Positions 14,746 through 60,700 of a DNA stretch of 64,000 nt are shown here, piece by piece. The notes under the pieces are model-generated. The model saw only the letters and a list, made by a program, of their open reading frames with translations. It did not search any database and had not been told where the DNA came from. The position numbers and the translations under genes are program-made. Source of the DNA: Rhizophagus irregularis (lineage: Eukaryota > Glomeromycota > Glomeromycetes > Glomerales > Glomeraceae); contig NC_089440.1 of assembly GCF_026210795.1 (NCBI RefSeq), forward strand, positions 2,046,001 to 2,110,000, written 5' to 3'. Numbering within the stretch: position 1 is the stretch's first letter; every line of letters starts with the position of its first letter.

Positions 14746-15676
14746 CAGTCAACTCTCTTTATAGTCACACATTTGGAACAGTCTATATTTGGTAATTATA
14801 AAGAGATGTAACTATATAAAAAATTTCTTATATTAGTATATCATAATTCTGGCCAAAAATTAATATAATTTTGGCTAAAATTATACTTAAAACTTTATTG
14901 TATCGTAACTCAGCCAATATTAATCATAGAGAAATGATGATCTTACCGCCATTCGATTCATCTCGATGAGACGGTTCTAATAGTATAAAATACATCAAAA
15001 TCCAATCACTAGATTAATTTCTGAAGTTAAAAAAATATTAATGGTTTTTGTGTAATAACTCTGCTAATATTGATCCTAGAGAGATGATCTTACTACCATT
15101 CGATTCGTCTTGATGCGACGAATCTAATGGTATAAAATACATTGAAATCCAATCACTAAATCAATTTCCGAAATTAAAAAATATTAAATGGTTTTAAGTA
15201 GTAACTCCGTCAATATTGATCACAGAGAGATGATCTTACCACCATTCGATTCGTCTTGATGAGAGGATTCCAACGAACTATTAATCGTCTTTTTATAATC
15301 ACTAGGTACTGAGAAATTCAGCAAAATGTTAAATAGCGCAGTAAACGTAAATCAAGAAATATAATAATGCCGATGCTTAACATTTTGTTGAATAACTTAT
15401 CAGCTAGTGATCATGAAAGGATAAAACTACCACCATTCGATTCGTCTCAGTGAGACGATTCTAACAAGCTATGGTACATCTTTGTACGATTATTAGATGC
15501 CAAGTTATTTAATATATTCTTTATATAACTGTGATTATAAACGGTTTTTTTTAATATAAGATTTTTGAGGATAGGTGTGATTGTGACTATATAGGATAGA
15601 TTTTAATAATAAAGTGTTTTGAACATTCAACTGGTGTGACTATATAGTAGAATGTAACTATAGAGGGAGTTGACTG
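14746..15676. mobile_element. pogo/Tc1-like non-autonomous element
   Basis: A 931-bp element with terminal inverted repeats beginning CAGTCAACTCTCTTTATAGT (left) and CAGTCAACTCCCTCTATAGT (right, read inward), flanked by TA on both sides. The terminal sequence and TA target suit the pogo branch of Tc1/mariner. There is no transposase frame. The interior holds three tandem copies of a unit of about 149 bases (starting near 14907, 15057 and 15206). Each contains the hairpin motif ATTCGATTCGTCTTGATGAG. A related truncated end is at 63495-63760. Confidence 0.8.
14905..15300 (+). repeat. three tandem ~149-bp repeats inside the pogo-like element
   Basis: Units start with AACTC(A/T)GCCAATATT-like sequence, then AGAGAGATGATCTTAC, CCATTCGATTCGTCTTGATG and ATCCAATCACTA. 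They are about 80-90% similar by eye. Confidence 0.75.
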
Positions 15677-34281: not shown

Positions 34282-34526
34282 CACAATTTGCATGCAAACT
34301 TATGGATAGTAGTTACAGAAACACCAATGAACACTAGTCAAAAAAGAAATATTCGGCTTTAGTAAAATTCAGCCTAGCACAGAAAATCCATTATAATTTA
34401 ACCAGTTTTTCTGGTAAATTTCTGATAAAACTGGTAAAATCTTATAATCCTAGAATTGTTTTGATCATGGCGTAGCAGATTTCCAGAATATTTTGTAAAT
34501 ACCAAAAATTTCATTTAATAAATTTA

Positions 34527-35142
34527 GACTATTTCTATTTATACACTACGTGTGTAAACACATATCATGTGATCGTTGTCATTTTTCAGTGATCTGCATA
34601 AAAATTTCCTATTTTGGAAATTTGTGTAATGCATTTTCATTTTTACCGAGAAATATAATTTCCTTTTTGGGTTGTATAACGTTACTCTGATATCCAAAAT
34701 TGGAAATTACAGTAATTTTTGGCTGGAATTATTGGAATTATAAAATTTGGCCGAAATTATGGTATGTGTAAGGTTGCTTGTCTAAACCTCTTCAAAATTT
34801 TACTATATATTTATTATAGTTTCGGCAGAGTTTCAGCAGTTTCGGCATTTATAATAAGTTTCGGCAGTTTCGCCTTTCTCCAAAGTTTCGCCAGTTTTTT
34901 AATATAACTTTAATATGGTTTCAGCAGAATTTCGCTTTTCGGCGAAACGCCATCTTGCCTAAACCCCTAGGTTTTGGCAAGCAACCTTAGGTATGTGTAA
35001 TAAATAAAGTTTTTCCTACCGAAAAAATTCAAGTCCCTAGAATAAATAGTAAAAATGGAAAACTATAGGGGTGTGACATGAGTGACAAATTATAGTCACG
35101 TGATATATGTTTCACACACTAGTATACATTAAGAAATTATCA
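34527..35142. mobile_element. middle nested element, inserted in the family B MITE
   Basis: 616 bases inserted into the family B element. It is flanked by the exact 8-bp duplication TAAATTTA (34519-34526 and 35143-35150). Ends are imperfect inverted repeats (GACTATTTCTATTTATACAC; from the right TGATAATTTCTTAATGTATA), followed by GTGTG and ATCANGTGA words on both sides. The uninterrupted target is visible in the sister copy at 33593-34017, which proves the insertion. Confidence 0.82.
34769..34989. mobile_element. innermost nested MITE with perfect 12-bp TIR
   Basis: 221 bases with perfect ends TAAGGTTGCTTG / CAAGCAACCTTA. It is flanked by the exact 8-bp duplication GGTATGTG (34761-34768 and 34990-34997). 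The interior repeats GTTTCGGCAG/GTTTCGCC-type words. An 8-bp duplication suits hAT-type mobilisation. Confidence 0.87.
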
Positions 35143-35919
35143 TAAATTTATATCGCAAAAAAGTTTTTTATCTTTAATTTTATTATTTATTATTTCAGTA
35201 GTTTATTACAATATAATTATTTAAAGCCAGTACATCTTTTCTGATTACTTTATATTGTATATGCACGAATAAAAAAAAGTTAAAAGATTATTATATATTT
35301 ATATATTTGGTAATACCATCTAAAATCAGAACTTTTTTTTAATTTCATACCGGTTGAAAAAATAAATTTCCAGAATTTTTATATTTAACCAGAATTTTTC
35401 TGAAATTTTTCCAAGGGTTTTTTCTGTGCTGATTCAGCTTATATTTGACTAAATTAAAAAATTTGACCTCAATTAGTAATGATCTACAATTAGACAACAT
35501 GCATGTTAGTCAAATATTTACATCACACATTACGCGTATCAAAAGTTTAAAAAAATTCTTATACATTCTGTTTTAAACTTTTATTCCTCCTTTTCCTCAT
35601 CCTTTGGCTCTATAGACGTAGGAAAAAAAAAAATTTTTTATTATTTATTTTTTAAATTTTAGTGGTTTTGTCTTTCCCTTCCCAGAATGCTGATCAAAAC
35701 TATGTAAATGGGAGGGGGAAGTCAGTTTTTTTATTTTAGAAACGTTATAACATTTCTTTTCTTAGTTTTTTTTATTTATTACGAAACCCATTTAGTTCAG
35801 AAATACCTGCAAGAAAAAGAAAGATTTGTAAGTCGAATCTTAGTTTTTTTTTTAATATTATAGAACAGTTTGTTTACTTTGCTAACCATTCTTGTTTTTT
35901 TTATAGATTACAGAAAAAT

Positions 35920-36050
35920 GAAAAGGAAAGGGAAAACGAAAGGAAAAGGGAAAACGAAAGAGAAAGGGAAAATGAAAAAGAAAAAGGAAAAATGAAAGGA
36001 AAAGGGAAAACGAAAGGAGAAAATGAAAGGAAAGGGTAAAACAAAGGGGA
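35920..36050 (+). repeat. purine-rich tandem repeat (GGAAAAGGGAAAACGAAA type)
   Basis: All-purine strand except for occasional C or T, with a loose unit of 15-20 bases. It lies near the start of the hairpin array. Confidence 0.7.
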
Positions 36051-36230
36051 AAATAACGTATTTTTAGGATTCGTAAATATTAATTTTAAATTTTTTTTTT
36101 CTTTTTATAGGTTTCAGTATCACAGGAGGGCTTTCGAAGAATAAATAAACCCAAAAATTTGTAAGTACGAACGATTTTTTGGGTTTTTTTTATTTTTTTA
36201 ATATTATGAACAGTACTAACCATTTTCATA

Positions 36231-37141
36231 TGGGCTGATTTGTTTACCTTTAATTAAAATATTAATTTTATTACATTTTTATTATACAAAATACTATATA
36301 ATATACAGTAAATTGGAAATGAGTATTAAAAAATTTTTATTTAATGTTATTATACTATAATTTGGTAAATATTTCTTTTAAATTAATATAATTCTTAGCA
36401 CTTACTATATATATTAAAAATTTGTATCTCAACTTAAAACATAAATATCTCCAGATCCAGTGATCCAATTGGCAAGCTCTTTTTTTGTTCATATAGACCA
36501 GATTAAAGGCTTTCCAAAGAGCCTAAATTTATAAAAAATGGATCAGTGGATCCTAAAATATTTGCATTTAAGCATGTTAAAAAGTTCATACCTCAACTTT
36601 AAACGTAAATATCTCCAGCAACAGCAAGCTCTTTTTTCGCCTATAAAGTCCAGAATAAGGGCTTTCCAACGAGCCTAAAATTATAGAAAACAGATCAGTG
36701 AATCTTGATATATTTGCGTTTAAAGATGATAATACAAACTCTAACATAAAATAATTATTTTTATTGTTTGAAAATATTTATTATAATACCATCTTTTATA
36801 TGATATTTTTATTATACTTTTATAAACATTTATAGCTACTAAGGCTATATAATTTTTATTTTACTTTATATTTTATTAAAATATACTTACTTTTTAATAA
36901 TATATATTAAAAATTCTATATATATGAGAAATGGGTTTTTTATTAGTGAAATGGGTTTTTTCACAGCTCTTTTACATTTAATAATTTAAGTTTCGCAAAT
37001 GTAAATTTTTGTTCAACTTATTATTTAGTCAAGTGATAATCAATCAGATGATTTTTTGGTATTACAAAACAATTTTGAGTAATAAAAATTGTGAAAATCA
37101 ATCAATAACTCTTTTTAATGCAGAGTAGACAAATCAGCCCA
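36231..37141. mobile_element. TA-flanked TIR element inserted in the hairpin array
   Basis: 911 bases with ends TGGGCTGATTTGTTTAC and, from the right, TGGGCTGATTTGTCTAC, flanked by TA on both sides. The interior has two copies of a segment of about 150 bases (from about 36418 and 36582) sharing AAATATCTCCAG, GCAAGCTCTTTTTT and GGGCTTTCCAA-type words. It splits an array unit right after its TACTAAC site. Termini and TA target suit Tc1/mariner-type MITEs. Confidence 0.78.
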
Positions 37142-37644
37142 TAAGTTTTTCTTTTTTTTATAGATTCAGTATTTTGGAAGGACTTCCAAAAAACAGAAAA
37201 ACCAAAGATTCACATACAAATCTTTATTTTTTTTATTTTTTTAATATTATGAACAGTACTAACTATTCATTTTCTTTTTTTTTTATAAGTTCAGTATCTC
37301 AGAAGGGCTTCTGAAGAATGAAAAAACCTAAAGATTTATGTACAAATCTTATTTTTTTTATTTTTTTTAATATTATGAATAGTTATTAATAACCGTTCTT
37401 TTCTTCTTTTTTTAGGATCGGGTGGACTTCGAGCTAAACGAAAAAACGAAAACTAAGATTCATAAGACGAATCTTAGTTTTTTTTTGTATTTTTTGTAAT
37501 ATTAACAAACAGTTACTAATAACCGTTCTTTTCTTTATTATTTTAGGATTAGGTAGGCTTCTGACCTTTGGGAAAAAAGGAACCAAGATTCATAAGTACA
37601 AATCTTGGTTTATTTTTTTTATATTTTTTTTTTAATATTAATGA

Positions 37645-37796
37645 ACGATTAGATATTACGTAATATTCAGTTTAATATAAACTTACTCCCTCTCTTGTCA
37701 GATTTAATAACCAATCAAATTATAATATTTATAAATTATATATTTTATTAAGTGTAATGTAAGATTTTGGTTACTTCCTCTCCCCTTTGATAATTA
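37645..37796. mobile_element. small inverted-repeat insertion in the hairpin array
   Basis: About 150 bases bounded by AGATATTACGTAATATTCAG and the complement of CAGATATTACGTAATTATC, disrupting one unit of the array. The target duplication was not resolved. Confidence 0.55.
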
Positions 37797-39072
37797 CGTA
37801 ATATCTGTAAGCTCCTTTACTAATAAACGTTTTTTACTTTTTTTTAGGTTCAGTGGCTTCCAAATTCTGAAGGACGAAAAAAACAAAGATTCGTAAGTAC
37901 GAATCTTGGTTTTTTTTATATTTTTTGTAATATTAATGAATAGTTACTAATAACTGTTTTTTCTTTATTATTTTAGGATTGGGTGGGTTTCTGACCTTTG
38001 GGAAAAGAGGAACCAAAATTCGTAAGTACAAATCTTGGTTTATTTTTCATATATTTTTTTTTAATATTAATAAACAGTTACTAATAACTATTCTTTACTT
38101 TTTTTTAGGCTTCGGGTGGACTTCTGAAGAACAGAAAACTCCAAAGATTCATAAATATGAATCTTTACTTTTTTTATTTTTTTATTATTATAAACGGTTT
38201 ACTAACTATTCTTTTTTTTTTATAGATTCAGGTGGACTTCTGAAGAACAGAGGAATCAAGATTTGTAAATAAGTACGAATTTTGATTCTATTTCTTTTTT
38301 TTCTAATATTACAAATGGTTTACTAACAGTTCTTTTCTTTTTTTTTATAGATTCGGGTGGACTACTGAAGAACGGAAAACTTTAAAGATTCGTAAGTACG
38401 AATCTTTACTTTTTTTATTTTTTTATTATTACGAATGGTTTACTAACTGTTCTTTCTTTTTTTTTATAGATTCAAGTGGACTTCTGAAGAATGGAAGAAT
38501 TAAAATTCGTAAGTACTAAGTACGAATTTTGGTTTTACTTAATATTATTATGAACGGTTACTAATAACCGTTCTTTTCTTTTTTTAGGTTTAGGTGGCTT
38601 CTGAGTTTTGAATAATGGAAAAACTAAGATTCATAAGTACAAATCTTGGTTTTATTTTATTTTTCTTTTTTTAAAAAATACGAACGGTTCTACTAATAAC
38701 CGTTTTTTCTTTTATAGGTTTGGATGAACACAACGAATGGAGAAACTAAGATTCGTAAGTACGAGTACAAATTTTGGTTTATTTTATTATTATTTTATTA
38801 TTATGAACGGTTAATAACCGTTCTTTTTTTTTCTTTTTTATAGGTTTAGTGTCTCAGGTGGGCTTTTGAAGAATAGAAAAAAAACCATAGATTTGTAAGT
38901 AGAATCTTGATTTTTTTCTGCTTTTTTTAATATTATGGAATGGTTACTAACCGTTTTTTTCTTTTTTTTATAGTTTCAGTAAATTTCTAAAAGATCAAGA
39001 TTCATGAATACATGAATCATGTGATTGTGATATTGTAGATTAGCAATAATTATTTGTAATTTAGATAGATTA

Positions 39073-39245
39073 TACATGCTGCCCAAATTATTTTGGGATG
39101 CCATAATTATAATTTGGGATGCCATAATTCATTCGGTTTATATATAATTTACTATATAAAGTGCCAAAATAATTTGGGATGCCATAATTGAATTTGAGAT
39201 TTTACTTATAATTATGGCAGTCCAAAATAATTTGGGTGGCATGTA
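39073..39245. mobile_element. short TA-flanked MITE
   Basis: 173 bases. Ends TACATGCTGCCCAAATTATT and, from the right, TACATGCCACCCAAATTATT, about 35 paired bases. TA occurs on both sides. An internal repeat of TTTGGGATGCCATAATT (three copies) makes most of the element self-complementary. Confidence 0.8.
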
Positions 39246-39247
39246 TA

Positions 39248-40735
39248 AGATAGATGCTAATAATAATAATAATATAATTAAGCATTTTTTTAATGTATAA
39301 TTTTCTTTTATAATATTAGATATATAATAAATAAATTTATATAACTTGTATAAATATTAATTAATAAGTTACATATATTGCATATATATAAAAATGTATT
39401 GTACTAAAAAGTTTCAGTACAGTATTGTACTTTACATATTATATGAAATGTACTTCGTACGAATCCCAACCCTGTATATAGGATTTATATTAAAAGTAAA
39501 ATCTACACAAGTTTCTAGCAGTAATTTGATACCAAATCTAGCCAATAAAATTGCAAGTTTAACATATCATGTATATTTTAAATTTGACTGTTTAAAAATT
39601 TTTTTATTAAAATTTATTATTTTTTATCTCTTTGTATTAGCTTTTAATATATCAATATATAATTGCAGGCTTTTATTTATATTAAAGGTAAATTTTCATA
39701 TTATATAAAAAAAATTCATATCAATTACTTATTTTCTATACATTTTACATTTTTTGTATTTTTTCATATTAGCTATTTGCATGTAATAATTTTTAAATAA
39801 TATTTGATTTCTCATTACAATTAGTTCATACAAATACACTTTTTTTTTTATTTAAAATATAGTTAAACACTATTAAAATTATAATAGGTTGGAAATATTC
39901 AAAAAAACATTTGAAAAAGTATTTATATTGCTAAAGTTTTATCTGCTAAAAAAGTTATTTGTGTATATAGTATAGCGATTAAATTTTCAAGAAAATGGAA
40001 ATGAATATTATATTGATTATCATATGCCTTTAAAATGTATTATTAAATATATTTGAATAGTTTCAGATAATAATTCTGTAATATTTTATTATACTAGCAT
40101 AATTATTTGGTTTGAAATTATCTGAAGTAAATCTTATAATCAGAATTTAAAGAAATGCAACGGAAATATATATATAATTAAATTTTTTAATAAAAATTTA
40201 TAAATAAAGTTTATACAGTTAAAGATTGTAAAAAAATATAATTTGAATCATTGATTACATTAGTCATTAGTTTTCAATTTCATCAGCTTTACTGTTCTAT
40301 AATTATATGAATCTGTAATACGGTAAGTTATAAAAATTTTTAATAATCAAACAACCTTTTTAGTATATCAAAAAAATACTTGTTTAAAAAAAATTACGTG
40401 TAAATAACGTTATATCAGAAATCATAATAGAACAGTATTTTCTTATTTTCTATAAGTTTCTTCTAAAACTGGACTTTTAAAAATTTTGGCATACAGTAAT
40501 CTCAGTAACCTACAAGTTCGGTTTGACCTTTGTCTGTGGAAGACCGCCTACAATTTCTGATACTATTTAAGTAAAATACTATGTAAACTTAATTTGATTA
40601 GTATCTCCCGGTATTTATTGTACAAGGGGTAATACCTAAGTTAAATAAATTTTGATCCATCAATTAAACTGATCAATTATTCGTTGATCGAACCTGCCAT
40701 TATTGATTAACCATTATTTGAAAATACTATTATAA
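39248..40735. other. AT-rich intergenic DNA
   Basis: The 104-codon frame at 39394-39708 is AT-driven and has no recognisable motif, so I do not call it a gene. The final 200 bases are the 3' flank of the LENG1-like gene. Confidence 0.5.
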
Positions 40736-43479: not shown

Positions 43480-44913
43480 TTATGATGTTTCTTTACGGTG
43501 TGGATCATGAATCTCGGATGATTGAGTATCATTAAAATTATATTGAACGAAATTATTGTCATGATAATAGTTAAAGGTATTATTTATAGGATCTGTAAAT
43601 TGGTTTTGTAAAAAATCGGTCAATGATGATAATGATGGTGATTCGTATTCATTGGTATTCATTTGCCAGCTTGAACAATATTCATCAATATCATATGTTT
43701 TCACAATTGCATTCGGTGGGCTTGAATTAAGACATTTTTGTTTATCTGCCCGTCTATATGGATGAGCCTTGTCCCTCGAATAGAGTTTGCTTGGACGATG
43801 TTTTAGCTTGTTCGAAGTTATAACCATAGAGCTCGAGTGTTGTGAGTCTTTGACGGAAATTTGAATCGGATTTTCAGGAGAAACATCGGCTTTAATATTT
43901 GAACGCGGTTTTGTAATTTTCGTTACCATTGGTGTTTTTTTAGTATAAGGCGCTGCTGTCGATTTATGAGATCCTCTAGTTACACGTGAGCGTATTACCA
44001 AGGAATTATGAGATGAGGACGTAGTTTCATCGTTGTTATTATTATAGACTTCGATTGATTTGTTAGTTGTTTCCTTTATTTCGTCAGATAATCCAAGAGC
44101 AGCAGTAGTAAAAATAATCATGTCTTTAGATGTCTCTTTTCCAGATTCAATAGCATTAAACATTTTTTCCCAATCCATTTCGTTTCTAAGGAATCTCTCC
44201 GTGCATGCTTCAAATTCTTGAAAGTCTTTTTCTTCGCGATTTCTTCTATTATTGAACCATGTCTCTATTTGTTTCACTGTAAGTTCAGTTTGATGACTTA
44301 ATTCTATTTTTTCGTAGTTGCTTGGTCGATTGTTTTTTACATAAAATGCTTCAAGAATTTGTTTAGTTGAGCCAGTGAAACGTGAACCAATATCAACCTT
44401 TACTGGATATCGAATAATGTGCAATTCTGTAAATTTGTGAAGAACAATGTTTTGAAATTCGTGTATAATTTTTGAAATCATAAATGAGAAAGTTTTATCG
44501 ATTTTCGCCAAAATTTCTTGTACATGCTCGCTGCCTCCATTTGGCAAAATAAAATAACTTTGTAGAAGTGTCAATTTTTGTTTTTGACATTTTTGTTCTA
44601 ATACATTTCTAACTTTTTCGATTTCTTTACAATACATATTATGTATTTTGATTCTCAAATCTTTACAATTATTATCACATATATTCTCAAAGAAGGTATT
44701 ATCAATGTTCGGTTCGACTAGTTTGACTGATACTTGATTTTGAAAAAGACTAATAAATTGCGATTCATCATTATAACTTGATTTATAAAATTGGTCAAAA
44801 AGTTTTTTTCGAATAGGCAAATTAACTACTTCGCTCGAATTTGAATTACTGCAATGAATGAATTTAGATAGTTTAATTTGAATTTCTTTCAATGTTTGAA
44901 CATTTAATTCCAT
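43480..44913 (-). CDS. HD2: homeodomain transcription factor, HD2-like (putative MAT locus)
   Basis: Intronless gene of 477 residues. A typical-length homeodomain lies at about residues 176-232: RFTGSTKQILEAFYVKNNRP, then VKQIETWFNNRRNRE, where the recognition helix keeps W, F, N and R. The N-terminal 170 residues are helical with several Cys. In basidiomycete HD proteins this region mediates dimerisation. The C-terminal half is Ser/Thr/Asn- and Lys-rich (KHRPSKLYSRDKAHPYRR), low in structure, and may hold nuclear-localisation and activation functions. It is divergently transcribed from an HD1-like gene across 183 bases, the arrangement of fungal HD mating-type loci. It matches the published description of a putative MAT locus in Rhizophagus irregularis. 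Function in mating is not proven for these fungi. The gene symbol follows that convention. Confidence 0.88.
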   Translation of the reverse strand: MELNVQTLKEIQIKLSKFIHCSNSNSSEVVNLPIRKKLFDQFYKSSYNDESQFISLFQNQVSVKLVEPNIDNTFFENICDNNCKDLRIKIHNMYCKEIEKVRNVLEQKCQKQKLTLLQSYFILPNGGSEHVQEILAKIDKTFSFMISKIIHEFQNIVLHKFTELHIIRYPVKVDIGSRFTGSTKQILEAFYVKNNRPSNYEKIELSHQTELTVKQIETWFNNRRNREEKDFQEFEACTERFLRNEMDWEKMFNAIESGKETSKDMIIFTTAALGLSDEIKETTNKSIEVYNNNNDETTSSSHNSLVIRSRVTRGSHKSTAAPYTKKTPMVTKITKPRSNIKADVSPENPIQISVKDSQHSSSMVITSNKLKHRPSKLYSRDKAHPYRRADKQKCLNSSPPNAIVKTYDIDEYCSSWQMNTNEYESPSLSSLTDFLQNQFTDPINNTFNYYHDNNFVQYNFNDTQSSEIHDPHRKETS

Positions 44914-45096
44914 GATTTTGATTTTTGAAAAAGAGATTTTTTTTATTTATGAAGAATCCCAATTATTGTTTTCAATTCGAAACAATACTGCAAAACCTGC
45001 AGTGTTCCCGCTTAAATTGTATTATAACTCCATTGTATATTTAAAATATTTAAATGATTTGATTTCTCCTTTTTTTAAAAAAACTCTCATCTTAAA
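44914..45096. promoter_or_regulatory. bidirectional promoter of the HD gene pair
   Basis: Only 183 bases separate the two start codons, so both promoters lie here or reach into the neighbouring gene. An open frame of 62 codons (44912-45100) runs from an ATG sharing the CATG palindrome with the HD2 start to a TGA overlapping the HD1-like start codon (ATGA). It could act as an upstream ORF if transcription starts far enough left. A run of seven T then A (45071-45083) precedes the HD1-like ATG. Confidence 0.5.
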
Positions 45097-46023
45097 ATGA
45101 ATGTTCAAGAAAGATCTTTCTACCGCCCTACACAATTTTCTGATCAGTCACAATTTAGCACATCATCAACGCTTGAGAAATATCAACAAGCCAATAATGT
45201 ATTATTTTCATTAGAAAATAGTGAAATTATAGAAGGAAATATTAATACTAATTCAAAAACATTTACTAGTTTTGAACACCATATCATGTATCCACTTTTA
45301 TTAAAACTTATAGATCATAGAGATAGTCTATATTTTAATACGGATTTAAACGAAATATTGTCTCGTACCGAAGAGTTATCTGCTGAATTAACTAAAATTA
45401 GTAATATAAGCGATATAAATATGAATTCAGATTTAGACAATGATATTCGATCTTGTATATCAACTGTAATATATCAGATTGTAGAAATATGTAATAAGGA
45501 AGAAGATTTTAGAAATGATCTTGTTGAAATAAAAAATGATATGATTGAGAATATTTCTTCGCAAAAAGGGTTATCATATTCTTCTATCAGTAATGTTATT
45601 TCTTATGATAATGAACCGAGTAAAGAAATACCAACACACAACCATTTTTTTGAATCGGGAAAATCCAAGAATATTCGTCAGAACATGGATCCAATGGCAG
45701 TATTATGGTTTATTAAATACTTAATTGATCATAAACTAGAAAAACCAAATAAAAAGCATCGTTTTCTACTTTCACTTTGGACGAATGTTCCAGAACATGA
45801 CATTGACCGATGGTTTATAAGGACGATGAGCAATTACGTAAAGAAATTAAATGACGCTGAGAAAGCTAGAGAGAAATTAAAAGAACGCGCAATTAATACT
45901 ACACGACAATTACGAAAACCAAATTCGTTAAAAACAAATAGTGAGTCCCGACAAGTTATTCCGCAAAGAAATTCGCCTTACAAAAGACCTACTCGAGGTA
46001 GAAAGGAAAAAATTAAACAATGA
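45097..46023 (+). CDS. HD1-like protein with degenerate homeodomain (putative MAT locus)
   Basis: Intronless gene of 308 residues. Residues about 194-253 look like a diverged homeodomain: AVLWFIKYLIDHKLEKPNKK, then NVPEHDIDRWFIRTMSNYVK. The WF pair of the third helix is kept, but the N of the WFxNxR signature is replaced, so DNA binding may be weak or altered. The larger spacing between helices 1 and 2 fits TALE/HD1-type proteins. The N-terminal 190 residues are helical and probably the partner-recognition part. The C-terminus is basic (TRQLRKPN, KRPTRGRKEKIK) and could be a nuclear-localisation signal. The gene is paired head-to-head with HD2. Such HD1/HD2 partners heterodimerise in basidiomycetes only when they come from different alleles. 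Whether that applies here is inference. Confidence 0.72.
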   Translation: MNVQERSFYRPTQFSDQSQFSTSSTLEKYQQANNVLFSLENSEIIEGNINTNSKTFTSFEHHIMYPLLLKLIDHRDSLYFNTDLNEILSRTEELSAELTKISNISDINMNSDLDNDIRSCISTVIYQIVEICNKEEDFRNDLVEIKNDMIENISSQKGLSYSSISNVISYDNEPSKEIPTHNHFFESGKSKNIRQNMDPMAVLWFIKYLIDHKLEKPNKKHRFLLSLWTNVPEHDIDRWFIRTMSNYVKKLNDAEKAREKLKERAINTTRQLRKPNSLKTNSESRQVIPQRNSPYKRPTRGRKEKIKQ

Positions 46024-50400: not shown

Positions 50401-51976
50401 GTTAAAAGACAGAATTTTCATATGTTACAAACATGAGGCAGAAATCAGTAATGCCATACAATTTATTGAAGAGTCAAATCTCACAGTCATTCAAGATATT
50501 TTTGTTTGCATTTTTACAATATGAATATTTATCATTCAATAACTCAAGAAAGGATCCCGCCTATTATTAAGATAGGTCACCTTGTGGCCTAAAGTAAAGT
50601 TTACATATGAAACTCATTGAAGATCGTACTATAAAAGGAAATTTTATGTTACATTGTTATGATTTTTTTTTTTTTTAGTCAATTAACCAATAAAATTTAT
50701 ATGAAAGTGAAATTTTTACCGGTAACATATCTTAGTAGTAGGCAGGGTCCTCCCAAGAAGCAATGGCAAATCCTGTGTGTGCTGCAGCTCACGCACATTT
50801 GGCAATTCCTGCAAAGTGATCTCTCTCATTATGTATATGTCATTATTGCATAAATTTTGATTGGTAGCTTGGGTCTCTATGCTGCTAGATGAAACCATAC
50901 ATTTGTTTCAATGCAATTAAATTTTTCAGATAAAAAAAAAACACACAGATTTAATCCAATAAAACAGTGGCTTACTTGTTCAGTATTTATATTTAGCAAA
51001 GTGATGTACATTAACTGAGACATAATTTGATATAACTATAACCTTTAGCCACTTAACTATCAGTGACTATTTTTTTGATTACCATATAATAATCCTGTAA
51101 TGTATATTTTGTAATAATTGACAATATAATTGCTATTATAATTTAATATATATTAAAATACCATATTACAATGAAATGTAAAAAAATAATAATTTTGTAA
51201 TATATGACAATTATCCTTTTATATTAGTTACAATATTAATATTAAATATCATACTTGTTAATAGACTTATTAATATATATGTTATTAAATATGATATTTA
51301 CATGACATGTCAAAAATTCCTATTAATATTATTTAAAAAGCATTGTAAAATACTACTAAAAAAATCACCACTGATAGCAAAGCAGTGAATGGTATTCATT
51401 TGATGTGTGAGCAATGCTCTGGAAAATAAGATAATGCTGATCTAGAAAGACTTGACTATTGTGTGTGAAGAATAATGTCACTGCAATCAGATTTTTATGA
51501 ATAACGGTTAATATTGAAAGAGGTGATAATTAAAGCTAAATATATTTTTGAATGTTATCTGAAATTTCATTACAAATGCAACTTCATTGAAAAATACTAA
51601 GGTTTTACAAAATGAGAAATAAGGTAGCTATGCAATTATAATTTCAGTGACTTATTGATACAGGTTTCAGAAGTCCTTCACTAGTTGAAATAGGACAATT
51701 CGGCCTAAATTTGATTAGGTCAAATATAGGTCGAATAACAATCTAACCTGTGTCAAATTGAGATTAAATTTTCGGGCACATTTAGGGTGCCAATCGTCTC
51801 AAATTCAGAAAGGATATTTGACTAAAATTAGACCTAAATTAAACCAATATTCAATATTAAACTTAAGTCGAATTATAGTCTAACAACCACCTATTTATTT
51901 CCGAATTTATTTTAATTTTATTATCAAATTTATTAAAGTATTTATTTATAAGAATTACACAAATTATCTTCAAATA
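50401..51976. other. repeat-rich non-coding DNA
   Basis: A GC-richer patch at 50738-50898 carries a 60-codon minus-strand frame (MVSSSSIETQATNQNLCNND) with no recognised domain. It may be another transposon fragment. The segment 51660-51890 repeats TAGGTCAAAT/TTAGACCTAA-type words with partial self-complementarity. The rest is AT-rich. Confidence 0.45.
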
Positions 51977-57753: not shown

Positions 57754-60700
57754 GAAATTTACTACGTATCACCACTGGTATTCACCACCGGTGTCACGTG
57801 TTTATTATTTATCTATTAAATTATAGCCCCTGGATGCAGCTTATTTGTTTATTAACAATTTAGTCTAGCCTCCTGATTAGTATTTATTAAACGCGTTAGT
57901 ATTTATTGAACGCGTCATCATTGTTACATCATATACAATAAAAAATTGCTGCGCGTCGCTTTGCTATAAACAATGCTAGCTTCATACATATTGTATCATC
58001 GCTGCGGCTTGTATTCTGTCATATACCCACGGCGCCTTTTCATTTTCTTTCTCTATCTCTGTCCGGTAGTTTTCTATTAGGTGACTGTTCTATTAGGTTG
58101 CAGTAAATATCATATAGCCCATTGGTTAAAATACACTAATACACTCCCTTATGTAATTCTCGTCAAAAAACAGTAATAGCCCTCTCTGTCCAACTCCCTT
58201 ATAAAATTCTCGTCAAAAAATAGTAATAGCCCTCTCTGTCCATATTGTATTACTTCTACTTATGGATAATGAAATAGATGAAATATTCTGGCCTGAAGAA
58301 ATCAATAACACGTCGGAAAATCAATTATCCGGTTATAACGAAAGTGATACAGATGGTGAGATAGTTAATGTAAATGAAGTTGTATTAACGATCAGTGATT
58401 TATTCAATGATTGGAAATCAGTCCAAGTGATTATTGATTCGTATGCAAAGCAAAACGGGTTTGTAGTAGCTAAAAGTCGCAAGGATGTTGATCCTATTGA
58501 TAAATCTATTATCTGACGCCATGAATATATTCGCTGGAAATCTGGAACTCATCAATCAAAGAAAGTTGAAGATATTAGTTTACACTGGGAATGTTCATCA
58601 TACAAAACAAATTGTCTGTGGTAAGTTAGTTTTTATCTTGGGAAAAAATCAAATCTCATACGTCTTACCAAATTTGTACAGGAACATAACCATCAATGTG
58701 ATCCAAAAACTATTGAATTAGCACCAAAAAATCTACGGCTTCCACAACTAATCATCGATAAAATCAAACACTACACTACAAATGGAAATCTAGGCGCTGA
58801 ACAGCAGTATAAACTGCTTGTTCAAGAATTTCCCCAGTATAATATTGCAAAGAAGAACTTATATAATGCAATTCACAAGTTCTGGGAGGTTAGGATTCAC
58901 GGTAAAACTGATGCTGCCACGATGCTTTTGTCTTTATTAAAGCAACGGGAAGATGATCCAGATTATGTTGTCATACCACGATTAGAAGGACCGGCCAATG
59001 AGCTGACTGGGCTATTTTGGATGACTAGCTATCAATGTAATGATCTATGGCCAAAATATCATGACGTTATTGTATATGTTACAACCTTGAAAACAAATCG
59101 ATATGAAATGGTACTCAGTCTATTTGTTGCTGTAGACAATAATTATAAAACAAGAATTGTAACACAAGCGTTGACTAAATATGAAAATCAGGCTGATTTT
59201 AATTGGATTCTCCAATGTACATTGCAAGCATCCAACAACCTTCCACCTAAGGTTTTATTTACTGACAATGACCCGGCCATAATAGCAGCTGTTCAGGTAG
59301 TTTATCCACAAACACACCACTTATTATGTATTTACCATCTCCTTGAAAATGTAAAAAAGAAAGCCAAATCTAAGCTTTTGAGGTGATATGGCGTCGAATT
59401 TTGTTGAAGATTTTTACACTATAAGGAATAGCTACAGTGAAGAACAATTCAATACGAAATATCAAGAAATGTTGGCCAAGTACGAGCCGTGTCATCCATA
59501 TCTTGAAAAACGAATTTATCCTAGTCGAGAATCTTGGGCTCGATATTGTATTTCAAAAATATTTACTGCGGGCATAGAAAGCACACAGCGTGTAGAATCA
59601 ATAAATGGCGTTATAAAAAAACTTGTTGACCGAGGCACTTTGTTAAAAGAGCTAGTAACGGCCATTGAACGCGAATTAGACAAGGAATCTCATTATACCC
59701 GAATTAATGATTTTTATGGATCAAATCCGTCGGTTGGGCTTCCTTCAACTTATAACACCATTTTCAAAGAACTCGATTCTGTATTGCAAGCGAATTTATT
59801 GCCTATTCCCTTGTCAATTCAAAGAGCTTAAATGAACCAATCATTGCTTTATCAAGTTAATTTAGTTTCAATTAATCAGATTGAAGATGAAGAAAGCAAT
59901 GTTAATAACGGTATATTAGGACATTCACATGATATACCTCAAATTCGTTTACGGGACCTCCTTAATGGTATATCCTACAATGATATTATCGAGATTTGGG
60001 AAGTATTGTATATTGCATCAAAAACTTCCAAATCACACTATGTTGTTATACTCAAAGACGTGACATTACTTTGTACCTGTATGTTTATTGTTAATCAAGG
60101 AATGATATGCCGTTATCAATTCAGGGTGCTTATTCAGTCAGACAACGCGATATTTCATATTTCACATATTCATACACGTTGGTTTAATTTGAGTTCAGAT
60201 CTACCTACCAACTCAACAGGTTTTATTACGATTATAAATGGTGAAAAAAATCATACAACAATACCATTGAGTTATATGAATCAATTAAGAACAGATAATG
60301 TATACACTATGACGATCAGAGAGAAGGTCAATAAAAAAATTCAATATGGTGCCGCGATGTCTATAGCTAAAACGAGCATTCAAATTGCCGTTACGGAAGG
60401 TATTACAGCTGAATTAATAGGAATTTTAACGCAGTTTATCATGAAATATCGTAGAAGCACCAGTTTAAGCATTGAAAAGAGTACTATTTCTTTCTCAAAT
60501 ACCATAGATGCCATATATTGTATATCATGGGTTTAAGCTTCGAAAATATTAAGAACTTTATTTTTTTTTCAGGTACTGAATCATTACAGGATTCGCAAGG
60601 ACTTTCTATTCAAGATAATTTTCAACCTTTATCCGTTCTTTCTGATATATCAAATCCCGAGTATCACAAACCAAAAGGATGACCTCCAAAGCAGTATAAA

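Follow-up and report, generated by a model that had tools for sequence, protein, structure and literature searches.

Results

The window, a 64-kb stretch of the Rhizophagus irregularis genome (C12:2046001-2110000; the assembly searched comprises 146,748,485 bases in 32 contigs), bears an array of intron-like units on its + strand, several genes and a number of repeats. A divergent gene pair lies about 4 kb from the element that contains the array; it consists of a gene with a homeodomain (43480-44946, - strand; PF00046, E 9.5e-12) and a gene without a family above the cut-off (45079-46023, + strand). We take this divergent gene pair (43480-46023) to recall the putative mating-type locus of R. 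irregularis. A MULE transposase domain (PF10551, E 1.6e-20) extends over adjacent reading frames at 58625-60536 (+ strand), and a 147-base tandem repeat of 2.4 copies, containing a GATTCGTC...GACGAATC palindrome, is located at 14905-15264. No Rfam family reached the gathering score within the window.

The first-pass annotation had described the interval 35800-39015 as a tandem array of intron-like units, in which donor, branch site, T-run and AG recur about 17 times in one orientation. The recurrence in one orientation is borne out: a donor-branch-polypyrimidine-AG pattern matched six times on the + strand of this interval and never on the - strand, and 300 dinucleotide shuffles of the same interval yielded 0.01 matches on average and never more than one. 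One of the six matches, at 37759, begins inside an inserted stretch (see below). The number of units has to be lowered, as a unit profile derived from 77 introns in six related copies recognizes 15 units on the + strand (35817-38968), 12 of them near full length, in an array that is interrupted at about 36225-37146 and at 37652-37816. Seven weaker profile matches on the - strand (E 6e-4 to 2.3e-6) are ascribed to palindromes. Furthermore, not every complete unit carries the full signals, as had been supposed; five of the 12 near-full units do have all three in exact form, but GTAAG is found in only seven and ACTAAY in nine.

The interval does hold the array, but it is only part of an element whose 5' end lies at 34332. 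The terminal 45 bases of this element (CACTAGTC...; 34332-34376, + strand) are 84% identical to bases 1-45 of copies at three other loci (L021, L022 and L018) and include the TIR with two mismatches. Bases 36-356 follow at 35432-35738 (+ strand; 75% match to L018), leaving about 1.05 kb between the two pieces; element bases 36-45 are present on both flanks of this inserted stretch (34377-35431). Downstream of the 5' inner region are intron unit 1 (35817-35907, + strand; GTAAGT, GCTAAC, TTTTATAG; unit profile E 2.8e-6), a purine-rich exon block with tandem AAAACGAAAGGAAAAGGG repeats that matches the purine block of L018 (35915-36047, + strand) and intron unit 2 (36148-36224, + strand; E 1e-7, model positions 2-84). 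Unit 2 is interrupted by a further inserted stretch with inverted ends GGGCTGATTTGT (36225-37146, limits approximate), which has no counterpart in related copies. Units 3-6 (37199-37278, 37325-37418, 37450-37539 and 37579-37651, + strand; E 1.2e-4 to 9.2e-14) are followed by another stretch without such a counterpart (37652-37816); unit 6 ends at model position 72 and matches restart at 37817. Units 7-15 (37880-38968, + strand; starts at 37880, 38009, 38139, 38252, 38384, 38499, 38620, 38742 and 38882; E 1.1e-8 to 2.6e-15) complete the array. The element match ends at 39070 and restarts at 39245, after a last inserted stretch (39071-39244), with a 3' inner region that is 73% identical to bases 2931-3032 of L013 (39245-39341, + strand). 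Among the inserted stretches at 36225-37146, 34377-35431 and 39071-39244, two of three have inverted ends (GGGCTGATTTGT; GCACAGAAAA).

Upon element comparison within the 64-kb window, no 3' end was found adjoining 39245-39341. At 51679-51949, on the - strand, lies a further 3'-end piece of this transposon family; it has no array, and its identity to the final 279 bases of L021 is 82.5%. A 12-kb inversion carrying off the 3' end of the main copy to this place was considered and rejected, as the flanks disagree (the 5' end is preceded by GAA, the piece followed by AAG); we therefore take the piece as another copy. The window array is real, yet it belongs to a single decayed copy of a larger element that is dispersed in the genome, and it is older and more broken than the first reading supposed.

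Ends, copies and kinship of the element

A genome search with one unit gave at least 215 matches; those listed mark 33 sites separated by 10 kb or more, the window included. From the surroundings of the best unit matches we extracted 20 stretches of 9.9 kb, which together with the window make up the 21 loci compared below. L012, L016 and L021 are 95-96% identical to L013 across 3.3 kb, and the similarity then stops abruptly. The element ends are CACTAGTCGAAAAAGGA... and ...TCCTTTTTCGACTAGTG, that is, CACTAG...CTAGTG in inverted orientation. Allowing for one mismatch at most, the TIR has 103 matches in the genome and its reversed control none. Both ends, with up to three mismatches each, are present in 12 of the 20 stretches and enclose copies of 2,397 to 4,291 bases; a 3-bp flanking duplication is identical in 11 of these 12, the exception being L013 with its damaged 5' end. 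Joining the flanks at L014, L021, L023 and L024 gives frames of 204-547 aa, and L023 sits at the end of a Transposase_21 frame. The motif ATTCG[AG]C, counted on either strand, occurs four and seven times in the 300-base ends of L013 and four and six times in those of L021.

Transposase_21 has 155 matches across the genome. One of them belongs to a complete element of 7,109 bases at C18:4192363-4199471, which has TGA on each flank and contains an 814-aa frame with this domain (PF02992, E 9.3e-12). Its 5' end agrees with the 3' end of the array elements in 64 of 70 bases (L021, L022, L016 and L018), and its 3' end with their other end in 33 of 40 bases (32 in L018). Based on the CACTA ends, the 3-bp duplications and the ends shared with a complete Transposase_21 element, we classify the array elements, by structure, as non-autonomous CACTA-type transposons. 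They resemble non-autonomous members of the CACTA/CMC/EnSpm group (Transposase_21, PF02992) in CACTA ends, TIRs, a short end motif, the 3-bp duplication and kinship with a transposase-bearing element, but differ in their cargo of up to 19 near-full intron units. The array is thus not free-standing but carried by a dispersed transposon, whose inverted ends and 3-bp target duplications also set it apart from a simple satellite, i.e. a tandem array without defined outer ends; such a satellite, dispersed genome-wide and without spliced reads, had been named at the outset as one refuting case. PMC11075540 describes the Plavaka branch of CACTA elements as common in R. irregularis. In addition, the flanks of L012 and L022 contain purine/pyrimidine-rich or array-like sequence running in the opposite direction, so that these elements appear to be inserted into older copies.

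Layout of the intron units

The units have the layout of spliceosomal introns, with GT-AG, a branch site and a polypyrimidine tract at intron spacing. Over the 21 loci, 263 near-full units were counted (5 to 19 per locus, L020 being a partial element); GTAAG is present in 215, ACTAAY in 235 and all three signals in exact form in 187. Introns with both signals measure 71-101 bases, with a median of 84 (21 loci), rather than the roughly 75 bases estimated at first, and the exons between them are mostly 36-57 bases long. Four copies of 95-96% identity have 15 near-full units each, and two copies of about 90% identity have 14 (L027) and 19 (L022). The first acceptor lies about 335 bases inside the element, after a long pyrimidine tract; in L013, no GTAAG donor was found upstream of it, which suggests that transcription may start in flanking host sequence. 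In a neighbouring host gene (choline-transporter-like; P0128, aligned with three mismatches), five introns measure 68-88 bases and have less regular signals; P0121, tried as a second host-intron yardstick, gave no alignment. At L011 (4948-5450), the usual units are followed by a second intron set with GTAAGTTT donors, some of which lie in other palindromes.

Deposited proteins and splicing

With the translated spliced exons of L021 as query, 137 deposited proteins matched at E 0.01 or better, and all 120 matches listed are from R. irregularis. The family therefore already enters the gene catalogues of this species and probably inflates its orphan-gene counts. Each of the 120 listed proteins was tried on those of the available loci that contain 40% of its six-residue words. 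Exact spliced alignments resulted for four, namely P0005 to L016 (13 introns), P0009 to L021 (14), P0024 to L023 (15, beginning outside the element) and P0094 to L018 (6), all computed here from the proteins and not from deposited exon coordinates. Among the 48 aligned introns, 37 have GTAAG donors and 46 a branch-like motif. The early impression that the units resemble true introns thus gains from other copies, to which deposited R. irregularis proteins align when spliced at these very donors and acceptors. Some aligned donors are displaced by 4 bases, however, which looks like software keeping a frame and counts against splicing as annotated. P0005, P0009 and P0094 bear OCT59_ names and P0024 a GLOIN_2v name; according to PMC10234402, the OCT59_ annotation (R. 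irregularis DAOM197198) was built with Illumina and Nanopore RNA.

The matches listed also include 17 RIR_jg proteins from 13 genes, six of which have isoform numbers of at least 2, up to.t6. A paper on this R. irregularis genome lists 41,572 genes with 43,675 isoforms and describes intron hints taken from RNA reads (PMC6123716), so that multi-isoform genes are expected to make up at most about 5%; six of 13 then has a binomial probability of 2e-5, in a rough comparison, as RIR_jg may be another version, multi-isoform genes are listed more easily and repeat reads mis-map. The isoform excess hints at RNA reads over varied junctions. Taken from the genomic and protein sequences, it is likely that the units are spliced when an element is transcribed, yielding an RNA that would keep no reading frame.

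Reading frame and decay

We also considered that the array might be a protein-coding gene, decayed or changing fast, in which each exon holds one repeat; this reading could draw on the many deposited protein matches and on open stretches of up to 241 aa in single copies. However, the chained exons of the six related copies contain 13-31 stops per frame (a last exon of 425 bases and some units left unspliced are part of these chains). Short marker peptides place the exon block in two or three frames in 67 of the 120 listed proteins (24 in all three) and in one frame in 37, with no marker in 16. No one frame is therefore kept across copies, and such a gene is very improbable. The lack of one common open frame, first noted for the blocks in the window, thus holds for the related copies as well.

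Decay was compared as identity to the consensus of the six young copies, with gaps excluded and the acceptor (272/273) biased by the end of the profile. At the 15 loci outside the young copies, identity is 96.3% for the donor, 95.5% for the branch site, 95.7% for the palindrome arms and 94.1% for other conserved sites; in the window alone, the corresponding values are 92.2, 91.5, 90.0 and 92.4%. No selection on single copies was seen, as donor and branch site decay no slower than other sites at the 15 older loci, indicating that single copies drift. Any function belongs to active elements and not to single old copies.

Neutral drift in old copies, the lack of a kept frame and the differing numbers of near-full units in the related copies (14, 15, 15, 15, 15 and 19) would all fit a cargo that merely hitchhikes, originating from a captured intron and its flanking exon by tandem duplication; its inherited signals may work without any service to the element. 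Two observations argue against such filler. GTAAG is retained in 84 of the 93 units of the six young copies although the donor loop has at least six lengths (the other nine have CGTACG in six cases and ATAAG or GTAAA in three), and the arms of the donor palindrome co-vary (see below). We regard hitchhiking as a tenable but distinctly less probable account than the one favoured below.

Palindromes at donor and branch site

Each unit combines two palindromes: AAGATTC/GTAAGTACGAATCTT spans the exon-intron boundary (slash) at the donor, and GAACGGTTACTAATAACCGTTC lies separately at the branch site. The exact donor palindrome occurs 268 times in the genome and its reversed control never. In folding calculations, five sense stretches gave z values of -2.7 to -5.2 and one antisense stretch -6.6. 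When arms are exchanged among units, the mean longest donor stem drops from 8.59 to 7.21 (sd 0.11; maximum over 200 swaps 7.52), and a unit's own arms outperform exchanged ones within all 21 loci. For the branch site, the stem is 6.25, compared to 5.81 (sd 0.15, largest swap 6.25), and own arms are better in 18 of 20 loci, the exceptions being L015 and the window. Co-variation is therefore clear for the donor arms and weak for the branch arms. Single positions were compared in 52 distinct donors with the standard spacing, which had been chosen beforehand by their five inner pairs (-4/+11 among them). Four of 14 positions (-4/+11, -8/+15, -10/+17 and -11/+18) exceed all 500 shuffles, which do not remove relatedness; the remaining ten either show no variation or cannot be told apart from the shuffles. 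Template-switch correction of imperfect palindromes could yield the same co-variation without selection.

RNA-level selection on hairpins gained no support: the donor-stem mismatches of the 52 donors comprise 22 G.T, 28 A.C and 14 others, so that G.T is not favoured, and one antisense strand folds equally or more strongly. Since folding is not confined to the sense strand, the role of the palindromes may lie in DNA rather than in RNA. They might, for instance, be binding or recombination sites (e.g. for the transposase), with the likeness to splice signals being secondary; strand-symmetric folding and the missing G.T bias are compatible with this, as are a few palindromes that persist without GTAAG, such as GATTCTTAAGAATC in L011. 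On the other hand, palindromes alone would not need GTAAG, every intact array has a polypyrimidine tract, a branch motif and AG at intron spacing, and the end motif ATTCG[AG]C is a different one, which is absent mid-element in the two elements counted. We therefore consider a purely DNA-level role unlikely.

Discussion

The window element is probably an old copy of a non-autonomous CACTA-type transposon whose cargo, a tandem run of strong spliceosomal introns, would be spliced when transcribed. On transcription, the units would be removed from the RNA, and the product would have no kept frame. Active elements may benefit from producing RNA that looks like the transcript of an intron-rich host gene and could thus be exported, be less subject to RNA silencing or be less harmful within a host transcript; this benefit of resembling a spliced host gene is one that we infer. 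The array could grow by slippage or unequal exchange, aided by the palindromes. A bolder version, which we put forward as tentative and rather doubtful, sees an intron-array transposon with an evolved, near-consensus intron cassette that presents donor and branch site in hairpins; its transcripts would be heavily spliced, pass as host-gene RNA and evade or weaken RNA silencing, and the palindromes would both build the array and tune splicing. Silencing that senses poor splicing is known in Cryptococcus, and introns are known as a barrier to nuclear RNAi in worms. If the arrays are spliced, a transposon consisting mainly of introns would offer a natural test of splicing as a shield from silencing, and a stock of ready-made introns for uptake by host genes.

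An intron-array cargo is unusual for a non-autonomous CACTA-type element, rows of intron-like units taking the place of a gene. A search of the open-access literature found no paper on a transposon with an intron array, and we know of no CACTA-type transposon with such a cargo. The nearest relatives in kind are introners and fungal introner-like elements, which are likewise repeated introns tied to DNA transposons or introns that form hairpins (PMC9860276, PMC8469720). If the array units were introners, each would be a mobile intron spreading singly into genes. Many introners derive from DNA transposons, with inverted ends in 72 of 177 families (PMC9860276), and fungal introner-like introns are symmetric (PMC8469720). 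In contrast to the introners described there, the array element has many introns, each with its own exon, and its ends, CACTAG...CTAGTG, are not splice sites. Among the first 100 of the 268 places with the exact donor palindrome, ten palindromes seemed isolated; all ten adjoin further array units, i.e. single dispersed units were found at none of the ten sites checked. The introner reading was rejected for these sites and is barely credible for the family.

Symmetrical stwintrons and sister introns of Hypoxylaceae also contain inverted repeats and a palindrome within introns, and their predicted hairpin is reported to leave the donor G, branch A and acceptor G unpaired in many cases (PMC8469720). 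As described there, they have one inverted repeat across the intron, and no target duplication was seen (PMC8469720); the array unit, in contrast, has two separate palindromes, with the donor one across the exon-intron boundary. A further observation concerns the orientation of the donor palindromes: in a minus-strand array at L029 (300-1500; C1:4309000-4310700), some have an inverted centre (GTACTTAC vs GTAAGTAC), as if the hairpin had flipped.
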